64,000 nt of DNA from Pedobacter rhodius (lineage in GTDB: Bacteria; Bacteroidota; Bacteroidia; Sphingobacteriales; Sphingobacteriaceae). Of the stretch, positions 5,049 through 23,486 are shown piece after piece. Both the position numbers and the translations under genes were made by a program. Each line of letters begins with the position of its first letter. Within the stretch, counting starts at the first letter, position 1. The notes under the pieces were generated by a model, which searched no databases, was not told where the DNA came from, and worked only from the letters and a program-made list of their open reading frames with translations. The stretch spans positions 682,001-746,000 of the forward strand of contig NZ_JAPWGL010000002.1 of the NCBI RefSeq assembly GCF_027213645.1, read 5' to 3'.

Positions 5049-5162
5049 CGGGCCTGGTCAAGCTTTGTTCAGCCACATATTCGCAGATTTTTAATTTGCA
5101 ATTTGTTGTGATTTAATTCGCCACGGAAACACGGAAAATGTCGCATCTGGAGCGGATGGTAT

Positions 5163-6100
5163 GGGCGTTTCGTCATTCCCAACCTGATTGGGAATCTTAA
5201 AGCATTAAGCGCTGGCATTAAGATTCCCGCATGCGCGAGAATGACGTAATCGATGGAACTTACGGTCTTTAGGCGTTTCGTCATTCCCAACCTGATTGGG
5301 AATCTTTAAGCATTAAGCGCTGGCATTAAGATTCCCGCATGCGCGAGAATGACGTAGTCATTGGAACCTACAGTCTTGGGCGTTTCGTCATTCCCAACCT
5401 GATTGGGAAGCTTAAAGCATTAAGCGCTGGCATTAAGATTCCCGCATGCGCGAGAATGACGTAGTCGTTGGAAACTACCGTCTTTGGGCGTTTCGTCATT
5501 CCCAACCTGATTGGGAAGCTTAAAGCATTAAACACCGGCATTAAGATTCCCGCATGCGCGAGAATGACGTAATCGTTGGAACTTACCGTCTTTGGGCGTT
5601 TCATCATTCCCAACCTGATTGGGAATCTTAAAGCATTAAGCGCCGGAATTAAGATTCCCGCATGCGCGAGAATAACGTATTCGTTGCACCTATACTCTTT
5701 GGGCGTTTCGTCATTCCCAACCTGATTGGGAATCTTAAAGCGTTAAACGCTGGCATTAAAATTCCCGTCTGCGCAGGAAAGACGTAGTCGTTGGAACCTA
5801 CCGTCTTTAGGCGTTTCGTCATTCCCAACCTGATTGGGAATCTTAAAGTATTAAGCGCGGGCATTAAGATTCCCGCTTGTGCGAGAATGACGTAGTCGTT
5901 GGAAACTACAGTCTTTGGGTGTTTCGTCATTCCTAACCTGATAGGGAATCTTAAAGCATTAAACACCGGCATTAAGATTCCCGCATGCGCGAGAATGACG
6001 TAGTCGTTGGAATCTACAGTCTTTGTGCGTTTCGTCATTCCCAAACTGATTGGGAATCTTAAAGCATTAAACACCTGCATTAAGATTTCCGCTTGTACCT
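5163..6100. repeat. Nine-copy 108-bp tandem repeat array with nested inverted repeats
   Basis: Units start near 5163, 5271, 5378, 5486, 5594, 5701, 5809, 5918 and 6025; the ninth is truncated. Each unit carries ATTCCCAACCTGATTGGGAA, itself a short inverted repeat, then TTAAAGCATTAA, then TTAAGATTCCCGC and GCGAGAATGACG. The outer arms CGTCATTC and GAATGACG are also complementary, so a unit can fold into a nested cruciform or hairpin. Copies differ by scattered substitutions only. Open frames on the minus strand through the array are repeat artefacts. Imperfect copies of a flanking sequence (GCCACA-ATTCGCAGATTTTT) occur on both sides, near 5073 and 6530. A solitary arm-like copy lies at 19869-19895. 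Confidence 0.9.
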
Positions 6101-8154: not shown

Positions 8155-8661
8155 TTAATATTTAAATCTGAAACCATTACCATTTATCAGTTCGATAAAC
8201 TCATTAACTTGTTTGTGATAATTCGATTGCTTAATTCTACGCCCTTCATAAAGCTCATCATGATCATCTTGAAACTTAAATAAATCATCAGCGCTATTAA
8301 GTTTCAGAAGCTGTGTTGTATTGTGAATAAACCCAACATTATCAAATCTTATCCCATCCAAAATGAATGGAATAACATTATCGGACAAAACCCATGCAGC
8401 GCCCATTTCATTTAAACAAATTTCGCTTTCTTTATAGTTACTGGTGATAATCTGTATAACGGCTACCGCATTCTTCATATTATCTTTGATAGCAGCCTTA
8501 AAATCTGAGCCACTTTTTATACCAGTATCTTTTGCTGATGTGTAAAATATCTTTTCCCGACTTATACCTAAGCCAACGGTAAGAATCTTATCAATAAAAG
8601 CAGATACAATCGGCTCATCTTTACTTGAATGACTAATAAATATTGTTCCCTCTTGTATCAT
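8155..8661 (-). CDS. TIR domain protein (putative NADase, anti-phage)
   Basis: A 168-residue protein consisting almost entirely of a TIR domain. The N-terminal strand and box 1 are TIFISHSSKDE (residues 6-16). The region SEICLNEMGAAW (79-90) contains C82 and E85, where E85 sits in the position of the catalytic glutamate of NAD-cleaving TIR domains. The C-terminal helix is QVNEFIELINGNG. TIR domains in bacterial defence usually deplete NAD+ or make cyclic ADP-ribose signals. There is no fused sensor domain, so activation would need a partner. The gene starts 98 bp after hsdR on the same strand and is followed by a 71-residue unknown protein. NADase activity is inferred from family knowledge. 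Confidence 0.82.
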   Translation of the reverse strand: MIQEGTIFISHSSKDEPIVSAFIDKILTVGLGISREKIFYTSAKDTGIKSGSDFKAAIKDNMKNAVAVIQIITSNYKESEICLNEMGAAWVLSDNVIPFILDGIRFDNVGFIHNTTQLLKLNSADDLFKFQDDHDELYEGRRIKQSNYHKQVNEFIELINGNGFRFKY

Positions 8662-8759
8662 ATTATCTTTTTGTAAATTTAATAGTTAAAACTGAATATG
8701 TTAACAGACTGTTTTGACAATGTTAAACTTATTTTCAACAAAAAATTTATTTATTCGCT

Positions 8760-11700
8760 TTAATTACTCTTATTATACTTCTTAAAATTCTCCGCTTGCT
8801 CAAAAATCTCTTTATAAACCTCATCCCTATCAATAGGCGGATAATCATTTTCAGCGAGCAGGATAATTAAATCAACTTTTAATTCTGCTTTAATATCCTC
8901 CCTTTTACTCCAATCGGTGTATTTGGCTTTATCATCAACCACATCTTTTACCTCTTGGGCTAAATGAATTAATTTATCCTCTGGATAGACAAAATCGTAT
9001 TTAATGGCTAAGGCTTTTAATATATCGTAAAATGCCTTTTCTTCGAAATCAATTCCCAGGTCTTTGAAAGAATCTTTTTCCTTTTTAAGAGCGTAATACA
9101 AGTCGATAATTTCGTCTGTAAAATCTTCTAAAACATTACTTACCAAAGTATCTTCTTTACGCTCATTGTATTTATCAACAATAAACTGTAAGCGCTTGGA
9201 GAAATCTATCCCTGTAATCTTATTTATTTTTTTAACATTATCAATGGCCTTAGCTAATAGCTTTTGCAGTAATTTAATCTTTGTGTTAGGCAGCTTAATT
9301 TTATCAATTTTTGCCATGTAATCATCAGAGAAAATATCTACTTCTGTTTCATTAGCATCTCCAAGTTTAAATATCTCTTCAACGCCTTCGCTTTCTATTG
9401 CATCTTGAAGCATTTGGCGGACTTTATTATTCATTTGGGCCGCATCTGGTGCCACCCCCTTTGTTAACTTGTAAATAATAGCTCTGATAGCCAAGTAAAA
9501 ATGAATTAGATCCCGTTCCTCGTTTTTGAAAACACCACTACCCGAACAAATATCATAAGCAGACTTTAATCGTTTTACGATGTACATAAAACGCTTTTCG
9601 AGTTCTTGAGTGAGTTGCACAAATTCGGCAGACTCATTTAAACACTTAAGTTGTTCTACCGGCGTTCCATGAAAATATTTTGAAGAATCGAATTTATGAA
9701 ACAGCTTATTCAAAAGGTCAAGTTGATCTTTTACAACCACAATTGATTGTTCAATATCTTCAATATTTTGCGAATCCCCTTTATCGTATTGCGCTAAGGC
9801 TAGATTTAGTTGTTTCTTGATTCCAATGTAATCGACAACCAGACCCTTATTTTTTCCTTCAAATTTCCGATTAACCCTGGAAATGGTTTGAATTAAATTG
9901 TGTCTTTGAATGGGTTTGTCAATATACATAGTATCTAAAAACGGAACATCGAAACCTGTGAGCCACATATCTACAACAATGGCTATTTTAAAGTTGGATT
10001 TTTCGTTTTTAAACTGACGATCAAATTCTTTGCGATCGTCTTTTGTGCCTAATAACTTATATAATGCTTCATCATCATCCTTACCTCTGGTCATCACCAT
10101 TTTTAGGCGTTCCATCGGTTTAATTTCTTTTTGCTCTTTTTCCGATAGCACAACATCATCTGGGGCAATTTTTACTTCAGCCCAATCAGGGCGTATGGCT
10201 AAGATATTTTTGTATAACTCAAAAGCGATTTGTCTACTACTACAAACAAACATGGCTTTGCCTTTTACTGTTGCGCCCTCAACAATTCTGTTTTCATAGT
10301 GGCGGACAAAATCTTCGGCAATGGCTTGTAAACGTTTCGGATCTCCGATAATGGCATTCATTTGTGCCATTGCCTTTTTGCTTTCTTCTATCTGATTTTC
10401 ATTACTTCCATCCTCGGCACATTGGGCATAATAAGCTTCTATTTCTTCGAGCTTATGGTTATTAAGCAAAACCTTTGCAGCTCGCCCTTCATAAACTATC
10501 CTAACCGTGATTTCATCGTTAACCGATTCAGTCATGGTATAGGCATCAACAATATCGCCAAATACATCAATTGTTGCATCAATTGGCGTACCTGTAAAGC
10601 CAACATAAGTGGCATTTGGCAAGGAGTCATGTAAGTACTTCGCAAAGCCGTAAGTTTTAGTAACGCCTTTTTCAGTGATACTTACTTTCTGATCTAAATT
10701 GGTTTGACTTCTGTGGGCTTCATCTGAAATACAAATCACATTAGTCCGATCGGTAAGTAGTTTTGTATCTTCCGTAAACTTGTGTATGGTGGTTAAAAAA
10801 ACACCACCGCTATTTCTGCCTTGCAATAGTTCTCTTAAATTACTCCTGCTTTCTACGCTAACAACAGTCTCATCACCAATAAAACCTTTGGCGTTGGTGA
10901 ATTGACCAGATAGCTGATCATCTAAATCGGTTCTATCCGTAATTAAAATTATAGTTGGACTACCAAAGTATGTGCTTTTCATCAGCAGCCTACTTAAAAA
11001 AAGCATAGTATAACTTTTACCACAACCTGTTGTACCGAAATAGGTGCCACCCTTTCCATCACCACGAGGGCGCTGGTGTAACTTTATATTTTCAAAAAGT
11101 TTAACTGTAGCATAGTATTGAGGATAACGACAAACAATCTTTTCATTTTTCTTCGAACTGTCTGGCAGGTAAATAAAATTGCGGATTATATCCCTCAACC
11201 TGGTTCGGTTAAACATACCTTGCACTAAGGTAAACATAGCATCAATGCCATCAACCTCCGTTTTCATTCCCTCAATTTTTCGCCATGCGTAAAAGAATTC
11301 ATAGGGTACAAAGAATGAACCAGCCTTGGTATTCACCCCATCACTAATCACACAAAATGCATTGTATTTGAATAATTCGGGAATATCTCTTTTATAGCGT
11401 ACCGTCAATTGCTCATAGGCATTGTGTATGGTCGTATCTTCTTTAATTGCAGATTTAAATTCAAACACGACTAATGGCAAACCGTTGATATACAATATCA
11501 AATCTGGAATGCGCATCTCATAGCCCCTAATGGCCAATTGATTTACAATTTTATATGTATTTTGATCTGATACTGAATAATCAATTAGTTGAATAAAGAT
11601 GTCTTTTTTGAGGCGATCTTCCCGCTTAAGCAAAAAACCATCTGACACCATTCTCATAAAAGTTTTATTGCTCTCGTACAAATCGGAAGAGGGTAAACGG

Positions 11701-11951
11701 TCTAAATCCCGAAGAATAGATTCAATTTCATTTTCTGTAATTGCATCGGCTTGATACTGCCTACGCAGATAGGCTTTCAAGTCATCATCAATTAGCACTT
11801 TATCGCTAACGATATTACCATAAACTACAACAGGTTCTTCAACCAAATCTGTGGTGGCTTGACGGACTACATTGCCTGCTTGATGAACCATTTGTTCATC
11901 TTCAAGTAAGTTAATAAATGCATGCTCTAATTGCGATTCGGTAAATTTCAT
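8760..11951 (-). CDS. hsdR: Type I restriction enzyme R subunit
   Basis: Motor and nuclease subunit of a type I restriction-modification complex (R2M2S), which translocates unmethylated DNA and cuts it at a distance. The 1063-residue length is normal. The N-terminal PD-(D/E)xK nuclease shows D150, E164 and K166 in IPDLILYINGLPLVVFEFKS. The SF2 helicase core follows: Walker A GTTGCGKS near residue 310, DEAHRSQ, GFTGTP and, further on, the arginine-finger region ISRVNR. It is the last of the five tightly packed genes hsdM-hsdS-OLD-AlbA_2-hsdR; the start lies 1 bp after the stop of the AlbA_2 gene, so translation is probably coupled. All catalytic motifs are intact. Confidence 0.95.
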   Translation of the reverse strand: MKFTESQLEHAFINLLEDEQMVHQAGNVVRQATTDLVEEPVVVYGNIVSDKVLIDDDLKAYLRRQYQADAITENEIESILRDLDRLPSSDLYESNKTFMRMVSDGFLLKREDRLKKDIFIQLIDYSVSDQNTYKIVNQLAIRGYEMRIPDLILYINGLPLVVFEFKSAIKEDTTIHNAYEQLTVRYKRDIPELFKYNAFCVISDGVNTKAGSFFVPYEFFYAWRKIEGMKTEVDGIDAMFTLVQGMFNRTRLRDIIRNFIYLPDSSKKNEKIVCRYPQYYATVKLFENIKLHQRPRGDGKGGTYFGTTGCGKSYTMLFLSRLLMKSTYFGSPTIILITDRTDLDDQLSGQFTNAKGFIGDETVVSVESRSNLRELLQGRNSGGVFLTTIHKFTEDTKLLTDRTNVICISDEAHRSQTNLDQKVSITEKGVTKTYGFAKYLHDSLPNATYVGFTGTPIDATIDVFGDIVDAYTMTESVNDEITVRIVYEGRAAKVLLNNHKLEEIEAYYAQCAEDGSNENQIEESKKAMAQMNAIIGDPKRLQAIAEDFVRHYENRIVEGATVKGKAMFVCSSRQIAFELYKNILAIRPDWAEVKIAPDDVVLSEKEQKEIKPMERLKMVMTRGKDDDEALYKLLGTKDDRKEFDRQFKNEKSNFKIAIVVDMWLTGFDVPFLDTMYIDKPIQRHNLIQTISRVNRKFEGKNKGLVVDYIGIKKQLNLALAQYDKGDSQNIEDIEQSIVVVKDQLDLLNKLFHKFDSSKYFHGTPVEQLKCLNESAEFVQLTQELEKRFMYIVKRLKSAYDICSGSGVFKNEERDLIHFYLAIRAIIYKLTKGVAPDAAQMNNKVRQMLQDAIESEGVEEIFKLGDANETEVDIFSDDYMAKIDKIKLPNTKIKLLQKLLAKAIDNVKKINKITGIDFSKRLQFIVDKYNERKEDTLVSNVLEDFTDEIIDLYYALKKEKDSFKDLGIDFEEKAFYDILKALAIKYDFVYPEDKLIHLAQEVKDVVDDKAKYTDWSKREDIKAELKVDLIILLAENDYPPIDRDEVYKEIFEQAENFKKYNKSN

Positions 11952-11952
11952 G

Positions 11953-13449
11953 CTATTTATAATCGTTAATCAACAATATGATATTGCCAATTTCTGTTGT
12001 ATAATATTTTTGTTGGGGGCTATTCGGAACATTCGGTAACGTCCTATTTAATAACTTCAAGTTTATTAAAGGTTCTATGTATCGTTTAAAGTTATCGTTA
12101 TGCCTTTTTAAACCTAAACAGTCTTCCTGGATTTCTTTATTTGATTTTGGCTTTCCGGAAAACTTTAAGATTTCAAGTTGTTCTGCCGTAAGGTGCGCTG
12201 CTAACTTGGCATATTTTTCTACCTGCTTTTCAGTTGGCATTTTGAGTTCAACCATCAGGTCGCGTTTTACCGTACCCAGGCTATCCAAACTAGCTTTCAG
12301 ATGTTCCATCAAGTCTTTTGCTTTAGCTTGGTCGTTAACTTGGTCGTTAACTTGGTCGTTAGCTTGGTCGTTAGCTTGGTCGTTAACAGGGAGGGACATT
12401 CGTAAGAAATTATCAGAAAATTTGAAACAATCTTTTGAATAGCTTTCTAAAATGCGGGGAATACCCGATCCCAATTGTTCTACCAGATCCAAATCTTTAT
12501 AAATCCGCATAATCTCTTTATTCCTTGGCACCGAAAAGCCCTCGAAAAATTCATCCTGACTCAACCCATCCGGTAAACCACCAGTTGAAGTGATTTCGAT
12601 ACGATCATCAAATAACTCAAATTTTGGTGGTACCTCGGTCGTATAATCATTATGTACAAATGCATTAATGATCGCCTCACGTAACGCAATCGCATCCCAA
12701 TACCTGGTTTCTTTTCTTTCTTTAGAAGTGATTTGGGTAAAAGTTTTATTTTCTAAATTAACCTTATCTAAAACCTGCTTGGTAGCTTTAATTAACGATT
12801 CATAACCATACTCATTATTTTCTACCAAATTAGCCCTGGTTAAACCATTGTACCTGGCTAACTTGATGGAGGTACTGTTTTTATCGGAAATTAAATAAGC
12901 CAAATAATTATATTGCTCCTCTGCATTGAGTAGCTCTAAGTTGGCAGCAAAATTATTGTTCAAGCTTTTACCTACGCCCTCGTAGTAGATTTTTAACTGC
13001 TCAAAACTTAAATTTTGTTGGTTAGATCTAATTTTGCTGATGGAGTTTCTGGTACGCTTGGCAAACAGCGCATCAATCATTTTTTGAGGCATAGGCTCTG
13101 ATGCCGTACCAATTCTGATAAAAGCACCTTTCTCTGTCATGCCATATTTCTTCAAAAAATAAGGCTTTTCACTACCACTCGCTACTATAATTTTAATAAT
13201 ATCCAAGCCATCTTTATGCTCACTAATTACATCAAACAAGCCTAAGCAAGAAGGAGAGATATTATGTTTTAAGCGGTCTTTTATTTTGAGCTGATCGCCA
13301 TCGCTATCTGTAACGCCTGCAGTTTTGCCTACTTTATCGATTCCAATATAAATTAAACCACCGGCTGCATAATTTAAAAAAGCAATCACTTCCTTTTCTA
13401 ACGAATCGGTAAGTTCTTGTTTGTATTCTATGCGGTTGGTTTCGGCCAT
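11953..13449 (-). CDS. AlbA_2 (Schlafen-type) ATP-binding protein inside RM operon
   Basis: A 498-residue protein with an N-terminal AlbA_2/Schlafen-core domain (NRIEYKQELTDSLEKEVIAF, then GGLIYIGIDKVGK) and a RecG-like ATP-binding C-terminal domain (REAIINAFVHNDY, DRIEITSTGGLPDG, QLGSGIPRI). A linker of five NDQ(A/V) repeats and a winged-helix-like tail (KSNKEIQEDCLGLKRHNDNFKRY) follow. Proteins of this type are commonly called putative transcriptional regulators or ATP-dependent DNA helicases and are frequent passengers in type I RM loci. The gene lies 3 bp after the OLD-like gene and 1 bp before hsdR, so it is an integral part of the operon. Its actual role (regulation, nucleic-acid binding or extra defence) is not known. 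Confidence 0.8.
   Translation of the reverse strand: MAETNRIEYKQELTDSLEKEVIAFLNYAAGGLIYIGIDKVGKTAGVTDSDGDQLKIKDRLKHNISPSCLGLFDVISEHKDGLDIIKIIVASGSEKPYFLKKYGMTEKGAFIRIGTASEPMPQKMIDALFAKRTRNSISKIRSNQQNLSFEQLKIYYEGVGKSLNNNFAANLELLNAEEQYNYLAYLISDKNSTSIKLARYNGLTRANLVENNEYGYESLIKATKQVLDKVNLENKTFTQITSKERKETRYWDAIALREAIINAFVHNDYTTEVPPKFELFDDRIEITSTGGLPDGLSQDEFFEGFSVPRNKEIMRIYKDLDLVEQLGSGIPRILESYSKDCFKFSDNFLRMSLPVNDQANDQANDQVNDQVNDQAKAKDLMEHLKASLDSLGTVKRDLMVELKMPTEKQVEKYAKLAAHLTAEQLEILKFSGKPKSNKEIQEDCLGLKRHNDNFKRYIEPLINLKLLNRTLPNVPNSPQQKYYTTEIGNIILLINDYK
12325..12384. repeat. In-frame 12-bp tandem repeat (5 units)
   Basis: Five units of (AGC/AAC)TTGGTCGTT on the plus strand encode NDQA, NDQA, NDQV, NDQV, NDQA on the minus strand within the linker of the AlbA_2 protein. 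The 12-bp period keeps the reading frame, so slippage would only lengthen or shorten the linker by four residues at a time. Confidence 0.92.
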
Positions 13450-13452
13450 AGG

Positions 13453-15255
13453 TCAAAATGGTAAATCTTGATCTGCTGGTGGAGCAACTACAACATTGTT
13501 ATTTTCGATTACAGCTAATTTATTGATCTCTAAAAAATTATTTAATGTCTCCGGATAAAGCTCATCAATGATAACAAAAGCAGGGTTTTGAATCAATTGC
13601 CATATTTTCAAACCACTTTTATCATTTGAAACATAACCAATTACTTCCTCAAGCCTTTTAACATTAAAATGAATTTTATCAGGGGCCGCCAAATCTATTA
13701 ACATCCTATTCGTGGTTAACATACCTTTTCTGTTTGGACTCGAAATTATATATAATTGATCAGCTTTTAAAGCTGCTAAATCATTAAATCCTTGCAAGCT
13801 AGCGAGAGGAACATCAAGTGCTTCAAAATCCCAATCATTAATAACATAGTAGTCTACATTGAAATGTTTACAAAGCTCAACAATATACAGCGCAGTTGCT
13901 TTTCCGTGATGACAGACGAAAGATATATTTTCAAAGTTCAAATAGGTATCAGCAAATTTATTCTTGTTGATAATATCAGCTCTTTGAGCTATAGCTTCCA
14001 ATACCTTTCTTCGAATTACTTCCTTGTATACTAAAATATCATTTGGCCCTTCTACTAAAATAACTTTTTTGCTAAAAAGCATCCTATTTAAGTTGGGCTC
14101 AACTGTTTTAACATACTCATTGAAACGATTTACATTTATAGGCTCTTCAAAGTCTTGCTGTAGCGCACGTGCAAAAGGATCTACGAATTCACCAACATTA
14201 TTATAAGCTTTTACTGTTTGATTGTTTTCATCCATTTCCAAACGGATGATGCCTTTAGTATCGAATGCATCAATCATCCTATCTGAGTGAGTCGTATAAA
14301 TTACTTGATGGCCCTTTTCAGCTAAACCACATAACACCATTTTGTAAAAGTATTCTTGATGATTTTCATGTAAAAAACTTTCAGGCTCTTCAAACAAAAA
14401 TAGGTATCGATCATCGTTGTTCGTTTCAGTAATTGATTGAATGACGGCCATTACAAACATTGAAATAAAACCATCTCCAAAATGCTCAATTGGTATTAAA
14501 TTATCTGTATTTCCATTTAAACCAACTTTAAAGAGCATTTTTAAAAAAATATCTTCGTAACTAGGTAAACCAAAATCTACAACACAATTATTATTTCGAA
14601 GATTAGCTTTATAATTCTTTTGAATTTTCTCGATGAATGTTGTTAACGAAGATCCTTCCAAAACCTTATCGGTTGCTATTTTTACTTCATCTTCAAAAAC
14701 TGCTTTTTTTGCTTTCATAGCATTGTCAGTTTCAACAAGTTTTTGAATATGCTTCGCAAGGAAAGATTTTAAGTTACCCCAACTTGTCCTTTGGGTAGAG
14801 ATCTCTTCCTTAATGTTATGGAAATTAATATAATATATTGGAGCTTTTTGCTTGATAGCCCATTTCTTCCCATACGCACTGTTCACTCCATAACAACTAC
14901 ATACATCACTTACAGAAACAACCCTCGATTCAGCAACATTAACTATTGCTAAATTTTGATATTCCTGATTGGCTACTATACGATCCTCATTTATATCTGC
15001 TCGAAACTTTAATGCAAAACAAGGTGTATTTTCCCAACTGCAATTATGAAAATCTTTTAAATCAAAACTATCTTCTCTAATTGATTCATACAATCCATAT
15101 TTAATGGCGTTTAACAAATTACTCTTACCAGAATTATTATACCCGATAATTGCAACAGGCCTTGTGTAATCAACATTAGGAAAAACAAAGTCTTGTCTTT
15201 CACCAAATGAACGATAATTCTTTACAGATAAGCTTGTAATTTTAATGCTGGACAT
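13453..15255 (-). CDS. OLD-like ATP-dependent nuclease (AAA ATPase plus TOPRIM)
   Basis: A 600-residue protein with an N-terminal ABC/SMC-type ATPase (KNYRSFGERQDF, Walker A GYNNSGKS at residues 38-45, the Walker B region YLFLFEEPESFLH, and YTTHSDRMID with the switch histidine). A C-terminal TOPRIM domain follows (VILVEGPNDILVY, with the metal-binding glutamate, then VINDWDFEALD in the DxD position). This architecture is that of OLD-family nucleases, several of which act in phage defence alone or with a helicase partner. Here it lies between hsdS (17-bp gap) and the AlbA_2 gene (3-bp gap), inside the RM operon. It may form an extra effector layer; direct interaction with the Hsd complex is inference. 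Confidence 0.85.
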   Translation of the reverse strand: MSSIKITSLSVKNYRSFGERQDFVFPNVDYTRPVAIIGYNNSGKSNLLNAIKYGLYESIREDSFDLKDFHNCSWENTPCFALKFRADINEDRIVANQEYQNLAIVNVAESRVVSVSDVCSCYGVNSAYGKKWAIKQKAPIYYINFHNIKEEISTQRTSWGNLKSFLAKHIQKLVETDNAMKAKKAVFEDEVKIATDKVLEGSSLTTFIEKIQKNYKANLRNNNCVVDFGLPSYEDIFLKMLFKVGLNGNTDNLIPIEHFGDGFISMFVMAVIQSITETNNDDRYLFLFEEPESFLHENHQEYFYKMVLCGLAEKGHQVIYTTHSDRMIDAFDTKGIIRLEMDENNQTVKAYNNVGEFVDPFARALQQDFEEPINVNRFNEYVKTVEPNLNRMLFSKKVILVEGPNDILVYKEVIRRKVLEAIAQRADIINKNKFADTYLNFENISFVCHHGKATALYIVELCKHFNVDYYVINDWDFEALDVPLASLQGFNDLAALKADQLYIISSPNRKGMLTTNRMLIDLAAPDKIHFNVKRLEEVIGYVSNDKSGLKIWQLIQNPAFVIIDELYPETLNNFLEINKLAVIENNNVVVAPPADQDLPF

Positions 15256-15272
15256 TTACTTATTAGTAATTA

Positions 15273-16514
15273 TTAATAAGCAACTTCTTCCATTTCAATT
15301 TTAGTCATTTTTGCTAATATTAAATTTTCAATTCTAGACAACACATCATTTTCCTTAAATCTTAAATGGATTTTTTTAATAATTTTTGCTGCAACTTTTT
15401 CGAAGTTATTTAAAATATGAGTATGAGGTAGAACAATAGGCATTTCTCTTAAAAAATTAAGTGTTACATAATTTTGCGTGCTTCCTTTGGGATTTGATGA
15501 AAGATATAATTTCATATATTCACTTTTAAGAAAAAACAGGACATATTCACCAATACCTTTTAGCTTTGAAGTTCTAAATAACGCAACATTTTTTATAGCA
15601 AAATTTACTTCATCATACAAAACATAACTCGTCAGTCCTACTGTGCCAATCATACTAAACAGTATATCATGTTTTTCAACTCTGCTTCTCTTGTTGATAT
15701 TTATAAAATCCTCTAGACTTATATTATAAGTTTCATTTATAGAAATGCTGTAACTTTTTAAGTGGGTAGACGTAACTAATGGAAAACCAATTTTCACAGG
15801 CACTGGAGAATCATGAGTACCATCTCTAACATCTATTATATTTGAAATGCTCTTTATTTTCCATTCTTTAGGCAATAAAGAACTTTCATTTTTATCATAT
15901 ACCATTTCCCCTCCATTACTTTTATAAGGCAGCCCATTTTCATCAGGAAATTCAAAATCTACAAACCATTGTTTATAAATGGCTTGCGCAGTTTCTTCTA
16001 ACTTGTTAATGAGTTGGTTATTTAATTGAATTCGGTTTTGTATGATTTTGTATTCGCTTACAATTTCTAATTGTTTTTCTGGAGAAGGGATTGGTAGCAA
16101 AGTATCGCACATTTCAGCCCAAGAAAATATTTCTCTAGCACTACCATGAGACATGAAACGGGCATAACGATCAAACTCTGCTCTTTTAAACCACATCATT
16201 AAATATTCAGGATGTAATTCATTTTTATCCACGACTTCAAAAACAGTATAGGCTTGAGATAATAAAGCATTTTCATATTTTTCTGCTAATGCTATAGAGA
16301 TTTTATCACCATTTCTGGAAGTCACTGGCCCATAAGCAAATTGATTTTTCTTAATCAATTTATAGGTTGACATGTCTGTACCAATAATATTCGCGATAGA
16401 TGGCATCAAAACTTTCTTAATGCTCACACCCAATAAAGGGTAATTATTCAGATCTCTATTTCGAATGTTAACTTCCTTTATATAATCTCCTAATCGCTTA
16501 TAGTTCGATTGCAT
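15273..16514 (-). CDS. hsdS: Type I restriction enzyme S (specificity) subunit
   Basis: The DNA-recognition subunit, of 413 residues, with two target-recognition domains. The first runs to about residue 150 and ends in the coiled-coil spacer (PSPEKQLEIVSEYKIIQNRI, then LNNQLINKLEETAQAIYKQW). The second begins LPKEWKIKSISNIIDVRDG and ends with a second helix. The repeat organisation is typical of HsdS. The start codon lies 17 bp inside the 3' end of hsdM, implying translational coupling. The predicted target is two half-sites separated by a fixed spacer; the sequence itself cannot be predicted. Confidence 0.93.
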   Translation of the reverse strand: MQSNYKRLGDYIKEVNIRNRDLNNYPLLGVSIKKVLMPSIANIIGTDMSTYKLIKKNQFAYGPVTSRNGDKISIALAEKYENALLSQAYTVFEVVDKNELHPEYLMMWFKRAEFDRYARFMSHGSAREIFSWAEMCDTLLPIPSPEKQLEIVSEYKIIQNRIQLNNQLINKLEETAQAIYKQWFVDFEFPDENGLPYKSNGGEMVYDKNESSLLPKEWKIKSISNIIDVRDGTHDSPVPVKIGFPLVTSTHLKSYSISINETYNISLEDFININKRSRVEKHDILFSMIGTVGLTSYVLYDEVNFAIKNVALFRTSKLKGIGEYVLFFLKSEYMKLYLSSNPKGSTQNYVTLNFLREMPIVLPHTHILNNFEKVAAKIIKKIHLRFKENDVLSRIENLILAKMTKIEMEEVAY

Positions 16515-18060
16515 AACCTAGTTCTTTAAAAACATTCAATAAATCTTCTTTAGATTGTTGTTCGCTTTGAAATAAAGTTTTAAACTCCGCTTGCAAACTC
16601 TTCATTTTTTCATCAAAATCTATATTTTCATCCCTATTTACAAATTCAATATATTTGCTAGGAACCAAAGAATAATCTTTTGCCACAACTTCCTCTTTAT
16701 TGGCCGAGTAACAGAATTCTGCAATGTTTTGGTAATTACTTAAATCACTTTGCCAATTATGATAGGCTTTTGTGATTTCTAATATATTTTCTTCAGAGAA
16801 CTGTGTATATTTCTTTTCAAAGGGTATACCTCTTTCACGTAAATCCATAAACAAGATTTCATTCTTGCGGCTACGGTAATTTTTAATGCCATCATTTACT
16901 ACTAAGCTTCTTTCTGTTTTATTTTTATTTAAAATCCAAAGGGTAACACTAATATCAGTCGTATAAAACATATTTCTTGGCAGAATTACAATGGCTTCTA
17001 CCAAATCATTTTCAATCAGTTTCCTGCGTATTTTGTGTTCTTCGCCTCCTCCACTTAAAGCGCCATTTGCCAAGATAAATCCAGCTACGCCATTTTCAGA
17101 AAGTTTGCTCACCATGTTTAAAATCCAAGCATAATTGGCATTGCTGGTTGGCGGCACTTCATAACCACGCCAGCGTGGGTCGTCTACCAATTCGTTGCTT
17201 GCCCTCCAATCTTTTTGGTTAAAAGGCGGGTTAGCCATAATGTAGTCGGCTTTTAGATCCGGGTGCTGGTCACGCCCAAAGGTATCAGCAGGTACATCGC
17301 CAAGGTTAGCGGCTATACCCCTAATGGCTAGGTTCATTTTAGCCAGTTTGTAAGTCGTTGCCGTATATTCTTGGCCGTAAATGGAAATTTCCTTTTTATC
17401 GCCATGGTGGTTCTCTATAAATTTAATAGACTGTACAAACATACCACCAGAACCACAAGCAGGGTCATAGATTACCCCTTTGTAAGGCTCAATCATTTCG
17501 GCAATGAGGTTTACAATAGATTTTGGGGTATAGAACTCGCCTTTCCCTTTTCCTTCAGCTAAGGCAAACTTACTTAAGAAATATTCATACACACGCCCAA
17601 CGATGTCTTGTTGTTTGTCTTTTATGGTATCAATATTATTAATCGTATCGAGCAGGGCAGAAAGCTTGCTCACATCCATGTTTAAACGAGAAAAGTAATT
17701 ATCTGGCAATGCGCCTTTTAGTGCAGGGTTATTCTTTTCAACGGTATGTAAAGCGGTATCGATAATTAAGGCAATATCATTCTGTTTCGAGTTTTTGATT
17801 ACGGTACTCCAACGAGATTCTTCAGGCAGAAAGAAGATATTCTTCATGTTGTAGAACTCCTTCATTTCCAGATATTTCTCTTTTCCTTCTTTTTTCAATT
17901 CCGCTCTTCGCTCTTCAAACTTATCGCTGGCAAACTTCAAAAAGATTAAGCCTAAAACAACGTGTTTATATTCTGATGATTCTACTGTTCCACGAAGTTT
18001 ATTTGCAGAATCCCATAAAATCTCTTCTATACTCTTAGTCTGCTTTGCTATTTTGGCCAT
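16498..18060 (-). CDS. hsdM: Type I restriction enzyme M (methyltransferase) subunit
   Basis: N6-adenine methyltransferase of the type I system, 520 residues. It has the N-terminal helical HsdM_N region (SIEEILWDSANKLRGTVESS), the SAM-binding motif I DPACGSGGMF near residue 198 and the catalytic motif NPPF near residue 275, all intact. It is the first gene of the operon hsdM-hsdS-OLD-AlbA_2-hsdR. No neighbouring gene reads into it, so its promoter should lie in the AT-rich 18061-18343 interval. Confidence 0.95.
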   Translation of the reverse strand: MAKIAKQTKSIEEILWDSANKLRGTVESSEYKHVVLGLIFLKFASDKFEERRAELKKEGKEKYLEMKEFYNMKNIFFLPEESRWSTVIKNSKQNDIALIIDTALHTVEKNNPALKGALPDNYFSRLNMDVSKLSALLDTINNIDTIKDKQQDIVGRVYEYFLSKFALAEGKGKGEFYTPKSIVNLIAEMIEPYKGVIYDPACGSGGMFVQSIKFIENHHGDKKEISIYGQEYTATTYKLAKMNLAIRGIAANLGDVPADTFGRDQHPDLKADYIMANPPFNQKDWRASNELVDDPRWRGYEVPPTSNANYAWILNMVSKLSENGVAGFILANGALSGGGEEHKIRRKLIENDLVEAIVILPRNMFYTTDISVTLWILNKNKTERSLVVNDGIKNYRSRKNEILFMDLRERGIPFEKKYTQFSEENILEITKAYHNWQSDLSNYQNIAEFCYSANKEEVVAKDYSLVPSKYIEFVNRDENIDFDEKMKSLQAEFKTLFQSEQQSKEDLLNVFKELGYAIEL

Positions 18061-18666: not shown

Positions 18667-19485
18667 TCAACCTTCATCTACCGCCCAGCTTAACCTATCC
18701 TCTTGCTCCACGACCTCGCTTTCTACTTCAGGTTGCGCCACAAAATCGACAATTACACCATCCTTTAGATGCAGGGCATGAATAATTTTACAGGCATAAT
18801 AACGCCGGTCGCCAAAGCGGGCCGTACCGGAAAAGAAGGAAATGCCCATCGCGAAGATTAAAGCTTTATCGCCTTTGTGATCCAGATTTAAGGCTAAAGC
18901 TATTTTCGGAAAATGGCAGTTGCTTAATGGTATCACCAGGTCATTTACTTCAATAATTTCGTAGCCGCCGGTATCATCCAGGTCGAAATGAAAGCCCATG
19001 ACCTGCAAACGGGCTTCGGTCGCTTTAGGATGCGGTTTCAGGAGGGCTTTTATTTCGCCCTTAGGCAGAATAAGTTTTACTAATCCATTGGTTTCGATGT
19101 GCAAAACCGTTTCGCTACGCCATAAAGTTTCGAGGGGCTTGCTGGTATTAAACTCGAAACCCTTAAGCAAAGCCAGGTTACCATCTATCAGCCTTTTATG
19201 GCCTGCCTGTTCCGCCGGGATGCTTTTAAAGATTTCAATAAAACGCTTGTTCAGGCGGTTAAGTAGATCGTCATAGGCATAAAGCTTCACCAGCGGGGCA
19301 AAAGCTTTCCGGATGTAAGCGGCATTTCGGCTGGCCGTGCCAAAATCGCGACTGCTTTTCTTACTTGCTTCGGTTTGCTGTATCTGAACCGGTTTTTGTC
19401 GAACAACAGCCGTATTGCCGCGTTTGTAAAAGACGAGATCGCCCAGTTGTCCGTTAATTTTGAGTACGCCGTTTTGGATAGCCAT
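18667..19485 (-). CDS. Conserved hypothetical protein
   Basis: A 272-residue soluble protein. The N-terminus (GVLKINGQLGDLVFYKRGNT, then VVRQKPV, QTEASKKSSRDFGTASRNAA) is a pattern I have seen in uncharacterised Sphingobacteriaceae proteins. The C-terminal half is beta-rich and ends with an acidic tail (EVESEVVEQEDRL). No signal peptide, membrane segment or catalytic motif is visible. GC content is higher than in the neighbouring RM genes, so it is probably a resident gene beside an acquired defence island. Function unknown. Confidence 0.7.
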   Translation of the reverse strand: MAIQNGVLKINGQLGDLVFYKRGNTAVVRQKPVQIQQTEASKKSSRDFGTASRNAAYIRKAFAPLVKLYAYDDLLNRLNKRFIEIFKSIPAEQAGHKRLIDGNLALLKGFEFNTSKPLETLWRSETVLHIETNGLVKLILPKGEIKALLKPHPKATEARLQVMGFHFDLDDTGGYEIIEVNDLVIPLSNCHFPKIALALNLDHKGDKALIFAMGISFFSGTARFGDRRYYACKIIHALHLKDGVIVDFVAQPEVESEVVEQEDRLSWAVDEG

Positions 19486-19960
19486 AATTTTTGTATATTA
19501 GGGTAGTCAAAAGGATGATGTTTCAATTTAATCAATCTGATTAAAAAATCCAAAATAAAAATCTTCTCAAGTCCACCTTCAGGCCACATTTAGTCCACGT
19601 TTACGCCACCTTCCGGCCAGGTTTGCCTGCACCCTGCCGTATACCTGCTTGCCTGCAGCTTTACACTTGCTTCGGTTGAGGTTGTGCAATGCTTTACATC
19701 AGCCTTACCAAAGGTTTGCCTCGCTTTCGGGCAGCGGGTTAACGAAGGATGAGGAATAAGTTACCTTTGGGTTAATTTGGTGTAGGGCAGCGTCGGTATT
19801 GGGTTATGGGAAATGGTACCGGAGCTGAACTTATGAAAAGCCGGACTATTGGCAGCAGCTTAGGTTTTAAGAATCCCGCCTGCGCAGGAATGACGGCCAA
19901 TTTTTTAAAAATAGCGATTATTTGGAGAAAAGCAAAGCATGAGTAGAGCAATACTGGAGT
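19486..19960. other. Gene-free stretch before the repeat array
   Basis: No supported gene. 19869-19895 holds a single hairpin-like fragment (GAATCCCGCCTGCGCAGGAA then TGACG) related to the arm of the 5.2-6.1 kb tandem repeats. Confidence 0.5.
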
Positions 19961-20597
19961 GCAACGGAATGTCTGCCGGCGTAAGGCAGTGGAGCGATCT
20001 TTGAAATAATTATTAAAGTGAAATTAAAAAGATCTCTCCACTGCGATCGAGATGACGACGCAACGTACCCTCAGAATTTAAAAGCACATACCGCGACGGA
20101 TGCCTGTCTCTGCGCCATGCTATCTGCACCATGCTATCCGGCATAGCAGATTTTCGCAGGAAAAAGCACGGAAATCTTTGCAGTCCGTTCATTAAACCAC
20201 AAGCCAAGGCAGAATCAAGTGGGTGCGATGGGATACGCAAGGGTAAAAGCCTGGAGGCTGCCGCTAACAAGATTTCCATAGGTTTTTACAAGAAAAGATG
20301 CAAGCCTTGATGGTTTGTTTCTTTATCATCAAGGATAAAGAAAGAGCCCCTCGGCGGCGGTGAGCCGAGGCAAGACCAAGCAAGGGCAAGAATCATAGTT
20401 CCAACCACCCCCCAACCCCTCCTTGAAAATAAGGAGGGGAGCTCCGTTCATAGTTTCAAAAAATAACCATATAAAAAATATAAGGTTCATAAGCTTAGCG
20501 CCTAATGTTCTTATATTTCTTATATGGTTAAAATTCGTTTTACTAATAACACTCCTCTGCGGATCGTCATCTCGAACCGATAGCTATCAGATGGGGT
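19961..20597. repeat. Long repeat copy A (with three hairpins)
   Basis: The copy runs from GCAACGGAAT to the GATAGCTATC palindrome. It contains the shared core (GGCATAGCAGATTTTCGCAG, then GGGTGCGATGGGATACGCAA), a 10-bp stem with hexamer loop ATCAAG at 20318-20343, a GC-rich hairpin CCTCGGC/GCCGAGG at 20349-20370, a CCCCTCCTT/AAGGAGGGG hairpin near 20417, and a 20-bp inverted repeat (20465-20484 against 20510-20529, one mismatch). Open frames inside are present in several copies but are not supported as genes. Confidence 0.85.
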
Positions 20598-21261
20598 GCA
20601 ACGGAATGGAGCGATATTTAAAGCAATTATTAAAGTAAAACTAAATAGATCTCTCCGCTACGGTCGAGAGGACGACGCAACGTACCCTCAGAATTTCAAA
20701 GCACATACCGCGACGGATGCCTGTCTCTGCGCCATGCTATCTGCGCCATGCTATCCGGCATAGCAGATTTTCGCAGGAAAAAGCACGGAAATCTTTGCAG
20801 TCCATTCATTAAACCACAAGCCAAGGCAGAATCAAGCGGGTGCGATGGGATACGCAAGGGTAAAAGCCTGGAGGCTGCCGCTAATAAGATTTTCGTAGCT
20901 TTTTACAAGAAAGGATGCAAGCCTTGGGTTTTTGTTTCTTTTGGGCCAAGCCAACCTGCGAAGCAAGCTTGACGACCTTTAAAAACATATACACAACTGA
21001 AAAAAGAAAGAGCCCCTCGGCGGCGGTGAGCCGAGGCAAGACTGAGCTAGGGCAAGAATCATAGTTCCAACCACCCCCAACCCCTACTTGAAATAAGGAG
21101 GGGAGTTCCCCTCATAGTTTCAAAAAATAACCATATAAGAAATATAAGGTTCATAAGCTTAGCGCCTAATGTTCTTATATTTCTTATATGGTTAAAATTC
21201 GTTTTACTAATAACACTCCTCTGCGGATCGTCATCTCGATCCGATAGCTATCGGATGGGGT
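20598..21261. repeat. Long repeat copy B
   Basis: This is the most complete copy. The variable stem is TTTCTTTTGG (20935-20944) with loop GCCAAG. Its 3' arm is interrupted by about 46 bp, so that CCAA and AAGAAA now lie apart (20951 and about 21004). The 20-bp inverted repeat (21129-21148 against 21174-21193) is perfect here: AACCATATAAGAAATATAAG and its complement, with a 25-nt loop. Confidence 0.85.
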
Positions 21262-21740
21262 GCAACGGAATGGAGCGATATTTAAACAGGAGTATTACTT
21301 AAAAAGATTTCTCGGCTTCGCTCGAAAGGACGATAATTATTCATCGAGAGGACGACGCAACGTACCCTCAGAATTTCAAAGCACATACCGCGACGGATGC
21401 CTGTCTCTGCGCCATGCTATCCGGCATAGCAGATTTTCGCAGGAAAAAGCACGGAAATCTTTGCAGTCCATTCATTAAACCACAAGCCAAGGCAGAATCA
21501 AGCGGGTGCGATGGGATATGCAAGGGTAAAAGCCTGGGGGCTGCCGCTAATAAGATTTTCGTAGGTTTTTACAAGAAAAGATGCAAGCCTTGATTGTTTG
21601 TTTCTTTATCATCAAGGATAAAGAAAGAGCCCCTCGGCGGCGGTGAGCCGAGGCAAGACTGAGCAAGGGCAAGAATCATAGTTCCAACCACCACCAACCC
21701 CTCCTTGAAATAAGGAGGGGAGCTCCGCTCATAATTTCAA
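21262..21740. repeat. Long repeat copy C
   Basis: This copy carries a short insertion near its start (an extra TTCTCGGCTTCGCTCGAAAG segment) and the same variable stem as copy A at 21601-21626. It lacks the AT-rich 20-bp inverted-repeat module at the end. Confidence 0.83.
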
Positions 21741-21753
21741 ATCAAGCGTCTAG

Positions 21754-22064
21754 GAATACCAGTCTATGCGCCATGCTGTCTGCACCCTGCTACCGGCATA
21801 GCAGATTTTCGCAGGAAAAAGCACGGAAATCTTTGCAATTCCTTCAATTACCGCACGAGCCAAGGCAGAATCAAGCGGGTGCGATGGGATACGCAAGGGT
21901 AAAAGCCTGGAGGCTGCCGCTATCAAGATTTCCGTAGCTTTTTACAACAAAAGATGCAAGCCTTGATTTTTGGTTACCTTTTTATCAAGAAAAAGGTAAG
22001 AGCCCCTCGGCGGCGGTGAGCCGAGGCAAGCCCCAGCCAAGGGCAGAATCATGTTTTCAAAAAG
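21754..22064. repeat. Long repeat copy D (partial)
   Basis: A 5'-truncated copy keeping the core, the GC-rich hairpin and a variable stem TTACCTTTTT-ATCAAG-AAAAAGGTAA at 21974-21999. The stem sequence differs from copies A and C on both arms while pairing and loop are kept. It ends just before the efflux operon stop at 22077. Confidence 0.83.
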
Positions 22065-22076
22065 AATAAATAATTT

Positions 22077-23486
22077 TTAATTCCAGCCCCCACCTAACGA
22101 TCTATACAAACCAACCACCGCATTTAACTGCTCGATTTTGATGGTGGTCAGTTCCAGTTCGCTTTGCAATAAATTTCCTTGCGCGGTAATGACTTCTAAG
22201 TAATTCGCCATACCGCTTTTGAACAACAAATTCGCATTTCTGGATGCCTGTTGTAAAGTCTGCGCTCTTTTCGCTGCAATGCTGTACTGGGTTTTCAGTT
22301 TCTCAAACTTTGTTAATTCATCAGAAACTTCGCCTACGGCATTAATAACCGACTGGCGAAACTGGATAACCGTTTTCTCCCGGTCGATTTTCGCCAGCGC
22401 TAAATTGCTTTTCAGCTGTCCCCTTTGGAAAATCGGCTGGGTAATGCCGCCGGAAACCAAACCAAATAAGGATGCCGGTACATTAAACCAGTTGCTGGCT
22501 TTGAAGGAATTGACACCACCGCTTGCCGTAATCACCAGTGAAGGATATAGGCTGGCTTTCGCCACGCCCACTCTTGCATTGGCTACATTTAAAGCGAGTT
22601 CAGCCGATTTAATATCCGGTCTGCGACTTAGCAAAGCCGAAGGAAAACCTGCATTCAAATCCTGCGGAATTACCATTTTATCGAGGCGGTTGCTCCGGTT
22701 AATCGATTGCGGCAAAGTACCGATCAAAACACTTAAAGCATTTTCCTGCAAGATTACATTCTGCTCCAAACGGGGCACCAGTTGCGCCGCATTTAATTGC
22801 TGGGCCTGGGCCTGTTGTATGGCCAGCGAAGTCACCTGACCGGCATCGAACTGTAAATTGATGATCCTCAGCGTGCTGTCGTTTAGCTTCAGGTTTTTCC
22901 TGGCGATGTCCAGCTGTGCATCCAGCATTAACAGATTGTAATAGCCTTGTGCAACGTTGGACACCAAACGGGTTTGAACCGCTTTACGCGCTTCTTCTGT
23001 TTGTAAATAACTGGCCAAAGCACCTGCTTTCTGGTTGCGGATTTTGCCCCAGATGTCGGCCTCCCAGAATACGCCAAGGTTAGCCGTATAATCTTCGATA
23101 TGGGTGGAACCGGTAAACTGGTTCAGGCTTAATCCGTTTAAACTGTTATCAGAGGGGCGGCTTGAACTCGCCGCCACCTGTAATTTTAACTCAGGTAGGT
23201 AACCCAATTTCGACTGTTTAAACAAGACTTCAGCCGCATCGATATTTTTCAATGCAATTTGCATATCGTAATTCCGAACCAATGCCGTATCAATTAAATT
23301 CTGTACGGTAAGGTCGTTGATAAAACTTTTCAGCGGCAAATCGCCAATGTTTGAAGAGTCTTTTGGTGTTGAATTCCTGAACATTTTTGGCGCCAGACTT
23401 TCGGGAAGGGCCAAATCTTTCGAAACCGAACATCCGCTCCAGATGAATACAAGGAGCAGGATGGTAATGATATTAAACCGTTTCAT
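22077..23486 (-). CDS. RND efflux outer-membrane lipoprotein (NodT/OprM family)
   Basis: The outer-membrane channel of a tripartite efflux pump, 469 residues. It has a lipoprotein signal (LLLVFIWSGC; C19 is the lipidation site) and the two-fold OEP repeat with long helical hairpins. Typical stretches are EADIWGKIRNQKAGALASY, VAQGYYNLLMLDAQL, LLSRRPDIKSAELAL and ASLYPSLVITASGG. Its start overlaps the end of the RND pump gene by 14 bp, so it is the last gene of the operon (tetR)-MFP-RND-OMF. Confidence 0.93.
   Translation of the reverse strand: MKRFNIITILLLVFIWSGCSVSKDLALPESLAPKMFRNSTPKDSSNIGDLPLKSFINDLTVQNLIDTALVRNYDMQIALKNIDAAEVLFKQSKLGYLPELKLQVAASSSRPSDNSLNGLSLNQFTGSTHIEDYTANLGVFWEADIWGKIRNQKAGALASYLQTEEARKAVQTRLVSNVAQGYYNLLMLDAQLDIARKNLKLNDSTLRIINLQFDAGQVTSLAIQQAQAQQLNAAQLVPRLEQNVILQENALSVLIGTLPQSINRSNRLDKMVIPQDLNAGFPSALLSRRPDIKSAELALNVANARVGVAKASLYPSLVITASGGVNSFKASNWFNVPASLFGLVSGGITQPIFQRGQLKSNLALAKIDREKTVIQFRQSVINAVGEVSDELTKFEKLKTQYSIAAKRAQTLQQASRNANLLFKSGMANYLEVITAQGNLLQSELELTTIKIEQLNAVVGLYRSLGGGWN

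Follow-up and report, generated by a model that had tools for sequence, protein, structure and literature searches.

A tandem array of a dispersed non-coding element with a predicted pseudoknot in Pedobacter rhodius, and its patchy recurrence in the Bacteroidota

Introduction

Type III toxin-antitoxin RNAs such as ToxI are tandem pseudoknot RNAs, with a unit of about 36 nt and an adjoining toxin gene. Telomerase- and MALAT1-type pseudoknots contain U.A-U triples of parallel-strand geometry. Such triples need a third strand parallel to the A strand. The STAXI motif is described in the part of Weinberg et al. 2010 (PMC2864571) used here as a motif of Enterobacteriales, usually present as two or three repeats near DNA-handling genes. 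The REP element of a REP-associated transposase is given as a palindrome of 20–40 bp in the part of PMC3733652 used here.

The DNA studied (the window) is a stretch of 64,000 nucleotides of the genome of Pedobacter rhodius. It contains a tandem array of a non-coding element with a predicted pseudoknot. The array, its relatives in other genomes and the possible nature of the element are described below.

Array and copies in the window

Four copies (A–D) of a non-coding element of about 290 nt are present at 20096–22059 (nhmmer; Table 1). The array is located between a restriction-modification/defence block and a minus-strand OEP/RND efflux operon. A sequence-only reading of the window had reported four tandem copies of a 300–660-bp repeat, and all four are recovered by the profile. 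The repeated unit is real; its length was overestimated. Successive copies are spaced by 617, 666 and 373 bp because other repeats are caught between them. These inter-copy stretches contain other dispersed repeats, so the longer unit is the element of about 290 nt plus hitch-hikers. One of them, a 67-bp palindromic unit, is a passenger outside the element proper; its two places within the array are nearly identical. Part of the inverted-repeat stretch upstream of copy A has matches elsewhere in the genome.

The stems and hexamer loops are as first described, including the split 3' arm of copy B. Hairpin P3 reads TTTCTTTATC ATCAAG GATAAAGAAA in copies A and C, TTACCTTTTT ATCAAG AAAAAGGTAA in copy D, and TTTCTTTTGG GCCAAG CCAA in copy B, where it is followed by an insert of about 47 nt and then by AAAAGAAA. 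The CCTCGGC/GCCGAGG hairpin (P4) reported downstream of P3 is likewise found in all four copies.

The copy B insert is found at the same place in other species (by eye). Its near reverse complement is located upstream of P3 in many copies, and some copies have both (by eye). The insert region (query 970–1054) is matched at 78–80% in several parts of the own genome (G000 C5:169360, C5:309670, C7:339256, C7:12397, C1:1072877, C4:599529 and others), with no full element there; the insert therefore seems to be a dispersed unit in its own right.

The sole closed ORF of at least 80 aa inside the array is an 88-aa frame (20013–20279, minus strand), which has no Pfam match at E 0.001. This agrees with the earlier statement that the repeat core is not an evident gene, and argues against descent from a coding gene. 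One frame of the 3' part is open in some copies (e.g. a 62-aa frame), as a decayed gene would allow; stem length differs by single bases between alleles, which a coding relic does not explain. The probability of such an origin is negligible.

Two other regions of the window were recorded. The defence block (8155–18060) contains a TIR protein, type I restriction HsdM and HsdS, an OLD-like AAA/TOPRIM protein and Schlafen/AlbA; gene content of this locus varies in size and order among Pedobacter species. At 5150–6080 tandem GTCATTCCCAACCTGATTGGGAATC units fill the PorP/SprF–NhaA gap, where relatives have the element (by eye).

Table 1. Positions of the array features in the window and of further copies in the same genome (G000).
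Feature	Position	Strand	Basis and remarks
Element copy A	20096–20402	+	nhmmer E 3e-89; 5' TGCTATCTGCACC repeats, P1, pseudoknot, P4
Element copy B	20713–21068	+	nhmmer E 5.5e-89 and sequence; P3 3' strand split by insert
Element copy C	21400–21685	+	nhmmer E 4.6e-83
Element copy D	21752–22059	+	nhmmer E 3.1e-96
P1 of copy A, long imperfect hairpin	20140–20306	+	closed by GGC 20140–20142 / GCC 20304–20306; fold
P1 of copy D, long imperfect hairpin	21795–21962	+	closed by GGC 21795–21797 / GCC 21960–21962; fold z -2.5
P3 (= S2) hairpin of copy A	20318–20343	+	loop ATCAAG 20328–20333; sequence, covariation
P3 of copy B: 5' arm, loop GCCAAG, start of 3' arm	20935–20954	+	sequence
Insert of about 47 nt in P3 of copy B	about 20955–21001		sequence
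P3 hairpin of copy C	21601–21626	+	loop ATCAAG 21611–21616; sequence
Predicted pseudoknot of copy D	21962–21999	+	sequence, loop/upstream covariation, U-run/A-run rule
S1 5' strand of copy D, CTTGAT	21962–21967
L1 of copy D, TTTTGG	21968–21973
S2 of copy D	21974–21983/21990–21999
S2 loop of copy D (= S1 3' strand)	21984–21989
P4 GC-rich hairpin, copy A	20349–20370	+	sequence, pair counts
P4 GC-rich hairpin, other copies	21015–21036, 21632–21653, 22005–22026	+	sequence, pair counts
Palindromic passenger, 67 bp, 21-bp inverted ends	20464–20530 (between A and B); second copy 21128–21194	+
Inverted repeat passenger, 22-bp arms	19986–20044 (upstream of copy A)	+
Further copy, own genome	G000:C4 about 651275–651617	plus	profile
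Further copy, own genome	G000:C1 about 905364–905716	minus	profile

Predicted fold of the element

The order of the core is P1 closed by GGC/GCC, UUGAU, a U-run plus G, and the hairpin P3 of 10–11 bp. The P3 loop is complementary to the upstream UUGAU. The hairpin noticed in the sequence-only reading is thus probably the second stem (S2) of a pseudoknot, preceded by the long hairpin P1, which had been missed. P1 is imperfect, about 115–205 nt long, and extends from GGC[CA]T to the GCC ahead of UUGAU; P1 and P3 together span about 160–240 nt.

Compensatory change in P3, proposed from the window, is real and recurs across many Bacteroidota; the hairpins therefore resemble structure under constraint. 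The four window copies alone are insufficient to show selection; copies from other genomes do show it. A limited set of P3 alleles occurs among copies. Over 74 distinct arm pairs, selected without any 3'-arm condition, Watson-Crick pairing is 82–96% at pairs 1, 2, 6, 7 and 8, where independence predicts 34–61%; pairs 3–5 are nearly invariant and uninformative. In 135 distinct copies, chosen by an anchor without regard to the 3' arm, the paired fraction of the P3 arms is 0.918 vs 0.651 ± 0.010 with permuted 3' arms, distinct copies being treated as independent and phylogeny ignored. The stem is absent in 11 of the 135, in some of them because an IS lies directly after the loop. The 80 records listed from a scan that gave at least 120 stretches contain 73 distinct forms, and in 70 of them six or more of the 8 P3 pairs are present.

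Alignment A1 comprises 55 of 100 selected copies, hand-picked and mostly Pedobacter forms with P4. Both sides are altered at 17 of its 23 pairs (shuffled 11.5 ± 1.5, reached in 1/500). The covariation score is 0.373; shuffling gives 0.140 and sliding no more than 0.138. The percentage paired is inflated in A1 because copies were preselected with at least 6 of 9 P3 pairs. Altered on both sides are 8 of 10 pairs in S2 and 2 of 6 in S1 (kinship ignored).

The first helix, S1, is formed by the 6-nt loop and the upstream strand. Combinations found are CTTGAT/ATCAAG, CTTGAA/TTCAAG and CTTGG/CCAAG. Rewritten S1 strands GGCAT, GACAC, GAAAC and AAGCA occur once each, in single copies so far. A scan that fixes only L1 (T{4,6}G) yields 54 distinct structures in 2.16 Mb, consisting mostly of flanks of known copies; controls yield 0 (reversed sequence), 0 (A{4,6}C), 2 (A{4,6}G) and 10 (T{4,6}C). 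The scan is not one of random DNA or random genomes, since nearly all loci came through CTTGAT patterns or similarity. S1 is CTTGA/TTGAT in 43 of the 54, and one AAAAT case looks like chance. Two crossing helices, S2 and S1, are backed by covariation (phylogeny ignored), as is required of a triple-helix pseudoknot. The 6-nt loop is fully paired and has no spare nucleotide; S1 and S2 could therefore not both be complete, and some pairs would have to open. The predicted fold of the element is well supported, and we hold it with high confidence.

In 109 of 124 copies the length of the U-run is one less than the last index of the U-A run, vs 48.3 ± 4.9 copies (maximum 67) by permutation; both runs also correlate with total length, shared ancestry is still in the data, and part of the U-run loci were fetched by TTTT adjoining the loop. 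In all 55 sequences of A1, S2 pairs 4 and 5 are U-A; the other eight S2 pairs change on both sides. In this knot L1 would be the third strand and lie parallel to the A strand. The U-run/A-run match is most simply read as a U.A-U triple helix within a telomerase-like pseudoknot, an interpretation that is plausible and somewhat more likely than not.

P1 halves form their own duplex at -22.5 kcal vs -11.5 with partners swapped from other records. The own half is the best partner in 29 of 54 records, taken from the 80 listed and required to have the GGC[CA]T anchor at 112–205 nt, enough flank and at least 6 of 8 P3 pairs. An earlier swap with badly placed windows gave a mean z of -1.0 and the own half best in 7 of 66. 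In 86 non-redundant hairpins the mean fold z-score is -4.1, below -2 in 66; copy A reaches merely -1.1. A smaller set of 14 hairpins has z from -0.9 to -7.1, and four more had no anchor. P4 is GC-rich, occurs mainly in Pedobacter forms and is missing in most others listed (by eye). One P3 allele occurs together with P1 types I, II and III; P3 alleles are combined with different P1 types, and copies therefore exchange modules.

Short P1 forms (L231, L261, L264, L215, L226) have a common apex, CTGTYTGAGC-hairpin-GCGAGTTT, with small variations (by eye). Tandem G.A pairs are possible in this apical motif (by eye).

Many copies are damaged. P3 of copy B contains an insert, and IS1182-like insertions part the P3 strands in others. 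In one copy (L025 1546–1566) the IS begins directly after the ATCAAG loop and encodes an IS1182-like transposase (261.6 bits, cut-off 270). Its starting sequence is also found after the loop in another Pedobacter genome, three times (L151 726–746, L125 715–735, L124 316–336). The knot thus looks like an insertion target.

Strand preference and gene context

Strand bias of the element is modest and favours one strand, whether RNA or single-stranded DNA. GU outnumber AC combinations in P3 (24 vs 7 in the wider set, 11 vs 5 in an earlier set, 8 vs 0 in A1). P1 is more stable on this strand in 54 of 86 hairpins; the excess persists after dinucleotide control (-2.57 vs -1.11 kcal, p 0.005). Flanked GU pairs of P1 number 167 on this strand and 155 on the other. 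P4 has no strand bias (GU 29, AC 36).

These data bear on an explanation by inert repeats, in which template switching in replication would keep the palindromes perfect and arms would covary without selection. Several simultaneous arm changes with near-perfect pairing are in line with that process, as are the modest bias of P1 and the lack of one in P4. Template switching leaves unexplained the fixed U-A pairs of S2, the length match of U-run and A-run, the loop/upstream pairing and the recurring order GGC-P1-GCC-UUGAU-P3. Covariation that is strand-specific and non-palindromic is contrary to it and has already been partly seen. We consider this explanation improbable.

The element is intergenic (one ORF overlap in 41 records). 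The consensus promoter motif of Bacteroidota is found upstream of 0 of 197 elements; the -7 box alone is found in 3 vs 5.8 expected. Relative to neighbouring genes the element has no preferred direction (21 of 39 on either side), which speaks against cis-regulation. Absence of the promoter motif, random orientation and the modest strand bias count together against an ordinary RNA gene. Passively copied small RNA genes, or mRNA-end elements, that perform regulation for the cell would account for the strand bias and the conserved fold. They do not fit the promoter result, the random orientation, the unrelated neighbours among those scanned or the patchy presence (stricter pattern in 9 of 392 genomes, see below), and are only marginally less improbable than template switching.

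Distribution

In the own genome at least two further near-full copies are present outside the array (Table 1), identified by reading twelve similarity-match places with the profile. Both are of another P1 type and have an insert ahead of P3. One P3/P4 piece is also among the twelve. Plain similarity search of this genome gives only short matches outside the array.

With copy D as query, 26 of 59 genomes give a match, own genome counted. Applied to the window and 24 loci, the profile matches 127 times, and 93 of these matches are near full length. In six Pedobacter genomes (G003, G004, G009, G020, G027, G064) copies are clustered within 25–35 kb. The clusters have a Sua5-type gene of 206 aa on one side and the efflux operon on the other, are of a single orientation each, and occupy gaps around CHU_C/PorP-type, NhaA and KefF-like genes; these genes were scanned in some genomes and elsewhere assigned from size and order. 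Other copies adjoin unrelated genes (20 neighbours scanned).

Pattern GCCTTGATTTTTN{6,16}ATCAAG matches in 47 of 118 genomes, own counted; the reversed control has no match in any of them. One match (G012) is without a stem and probably due to chance. A stricter pattern matches 9 of 392 genomes of the phylum, its reversed control none; in at least one of the nine (G332) the usual spacing is absent. Nearly all loci were obtained via CTTGAT patterns or similarity. Among the 80 records listed from the scan of species representatives, whose loci were fetched by a pattern already requiring TTTT adjoining the loop, most are Bacteroidota. The few non-Bacteroidota records among those listed are metagenome bins and may be contaminated. 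Plasmids have one 41-nt match and viral contigs two stretches; phages have no match to the element. The element core recurs patchily in the Bacteroidota.

Presence of the element differs between species at the one locus read in sequence (G020:C9). It is present in G020 and as a damaged copy with inserts in G011. In G064, G075, G004 and G034 different sequence, repetitive by eye, occupies the orthologous gap; in G066 one flank only was matched. Comparison of insertion sites, proposed in the sequence-only reading, thus gives turnover between species and no clean empty site at this locus; for a second locus the comparison used match coordinates alone.

The element at this locus is surrounded by REP-like repeats (by eye), as expected of a large REP relative that a Y1 (REP-associated tyrosine) transposase mobilises in the form of folded single-stranded DNA, with the hairpins as recognition sites. 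Y1_Tnp is present in 38 of 38 sampled Pedobacter genomes with stem-bearing pattern matches vs 6 of 33 others, and the own genome has a 186-aa REP-transposase-like ORF (68.7 bits, cut-off 80) flanked by three P3/P4-like hairpins. The raw association with Y1 is striking. On a recA tree of 58 genomes it is mainly one clade boundary, and the sole transposases of G022 and G078 belong to different groups (22 compared, of 30 loci); Y1 transposase as partner was set aside for these two reasons. P3/P4-like hairpins are found on both sides at 1 of 30 transposase loci (two overlap), with no full element. Three relatives of that transposase come with their own palindromes (by eye). The element does not fall within the REP length of 20–40 bp. 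Origin as a REP relative is unlikely, though it ranks above the rivals considered earlier.

The own-genome REP-transposase-like gene, with its flanking P3/P4-like hairpins and GGTTGGTGGCCCACCAACC palindromes (L203 934–981, 1096–1141, 1228–1788, 1947–1995), is a lead only.

Proposed nature of the element

The reading that we favour, by a narrow preference, is a dispersed, non-autonomous, non-coding element that acts as a folded single strand, is spread in trans and is arrayed in tandem. Selection would act on one folded strand, in which P1, closed by GGC/GCC, is followed directly by the pseudoknot. UUGAU would pair with the P3 loop; the intervening U-run probably lies in the P3 major groove, forming U.A-U triples with the A-run. 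A trans-acting factor may recognise the fold and spread the copies; we lean slightly towards spread of this kind. Tandem arrays could then grow via ordinary duplication and recombination. The folded strand probably works as RNA; single-stranded DNA is a distinctly weaker candidate.

Structured RNA or mobile element, the choice offered by the sequence-only reading, is the right pair of candidates, with the reservation that neither a promoter motif (0/197) nor, at the one locus read in sequence, a clean empty site was found. The turnover between species and the module exchange would fit a mobile element with functional hairpins.

A more specific possibility is a SINE-like bacterial parasite. It would consist of a small non-coding RNA in which a triple-helix pseudoknot of the telomerase type lies close to the 3' end. 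A reverse transcriptase or nuclease, either of the host or itself mobile, would copy it and insert it in trans, and it would have spread through the Bacteroidota keeping little but shape. This version is speculative and rather unlikely.

The Rfam search suggested for the hairpins gave nothing over the element at gathering score in the loci tested. In Rfam 15 window positions 19400–22600 have five matches at E up to 5, all far below gathering scores; in 23 other loci (15 + 8 sources) the matches that overlap the element are all below gathering scores. No description of the element was found in a library of open-licence papers. If the favoured reading is right, the element represents an undescribed family of structured elements scattered through a phylum and absent from Rfam 15 for the loci tested. 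Its stems would be rewritten to such a degree that relatives escape sequence searches. It would provide a predicted telomerase-type triple helix in bacteria, together with numerous naturally occurring compensatory variants on which the rules of triple helices could be tested. It would also raise the question of what machinery recognises and spreads such a shape.

Comparison with described systems

Flavo-1 RNA (RF01705) is, like the element, a structured RNA of Bacteroidota. Its matches lie a few hundred bases from the element at three loci (L113 290–388, L111 298–364, L264 6277–6439; L111 below gathering score). They do not overlap the element at any of the three, and are on the opposite strand in L113 and L111.

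ToxI shares the tandem pseudoknot arrangement. Unlike ToxI, the element is about 290 nt long, and no ToxN-like toxin gene is present among the neighbours scanned, which are a minority of all neighbours.

STAXI likewise consists of tandem pseudoknot units, and its authors, in the part of the paper used here, also weigh single-stranded DNA against RNA (PMC2864571). In contrast to STAXI as described there, a long hairpin is located ahead of each knot, and the neighbours scanned are unrelated.

REP and REPIN sequences are, like the element, multi-copy, intergenic and palindromic, in genomes with such transposases, according to the parts used of PMC3733652, PMC6006769 and PMC3116915. The element differs from REP as defined there in size (about 290 nt in Pedobacter vs 20–40 nt), and its link to the transposase is confounded by clade.

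Further systems for comparison are telomerase RNA and MALAT1/ENE-type triple-helix pseudoknots (PMC11411715, PMC5855555). With the element they share a U-rich first loop, S2 with a U-A run, and a parallel orientation that suits U.A-U triples. In the element the lengths of U-run and A-run match. The element differs in being bacterial, repeated and intergenic, in having no template and no poly(A) tail, and in that its triple helix is a prediction. It differs also in its loop: the whole 6-nt loop of S2 serves as a strand of S1.
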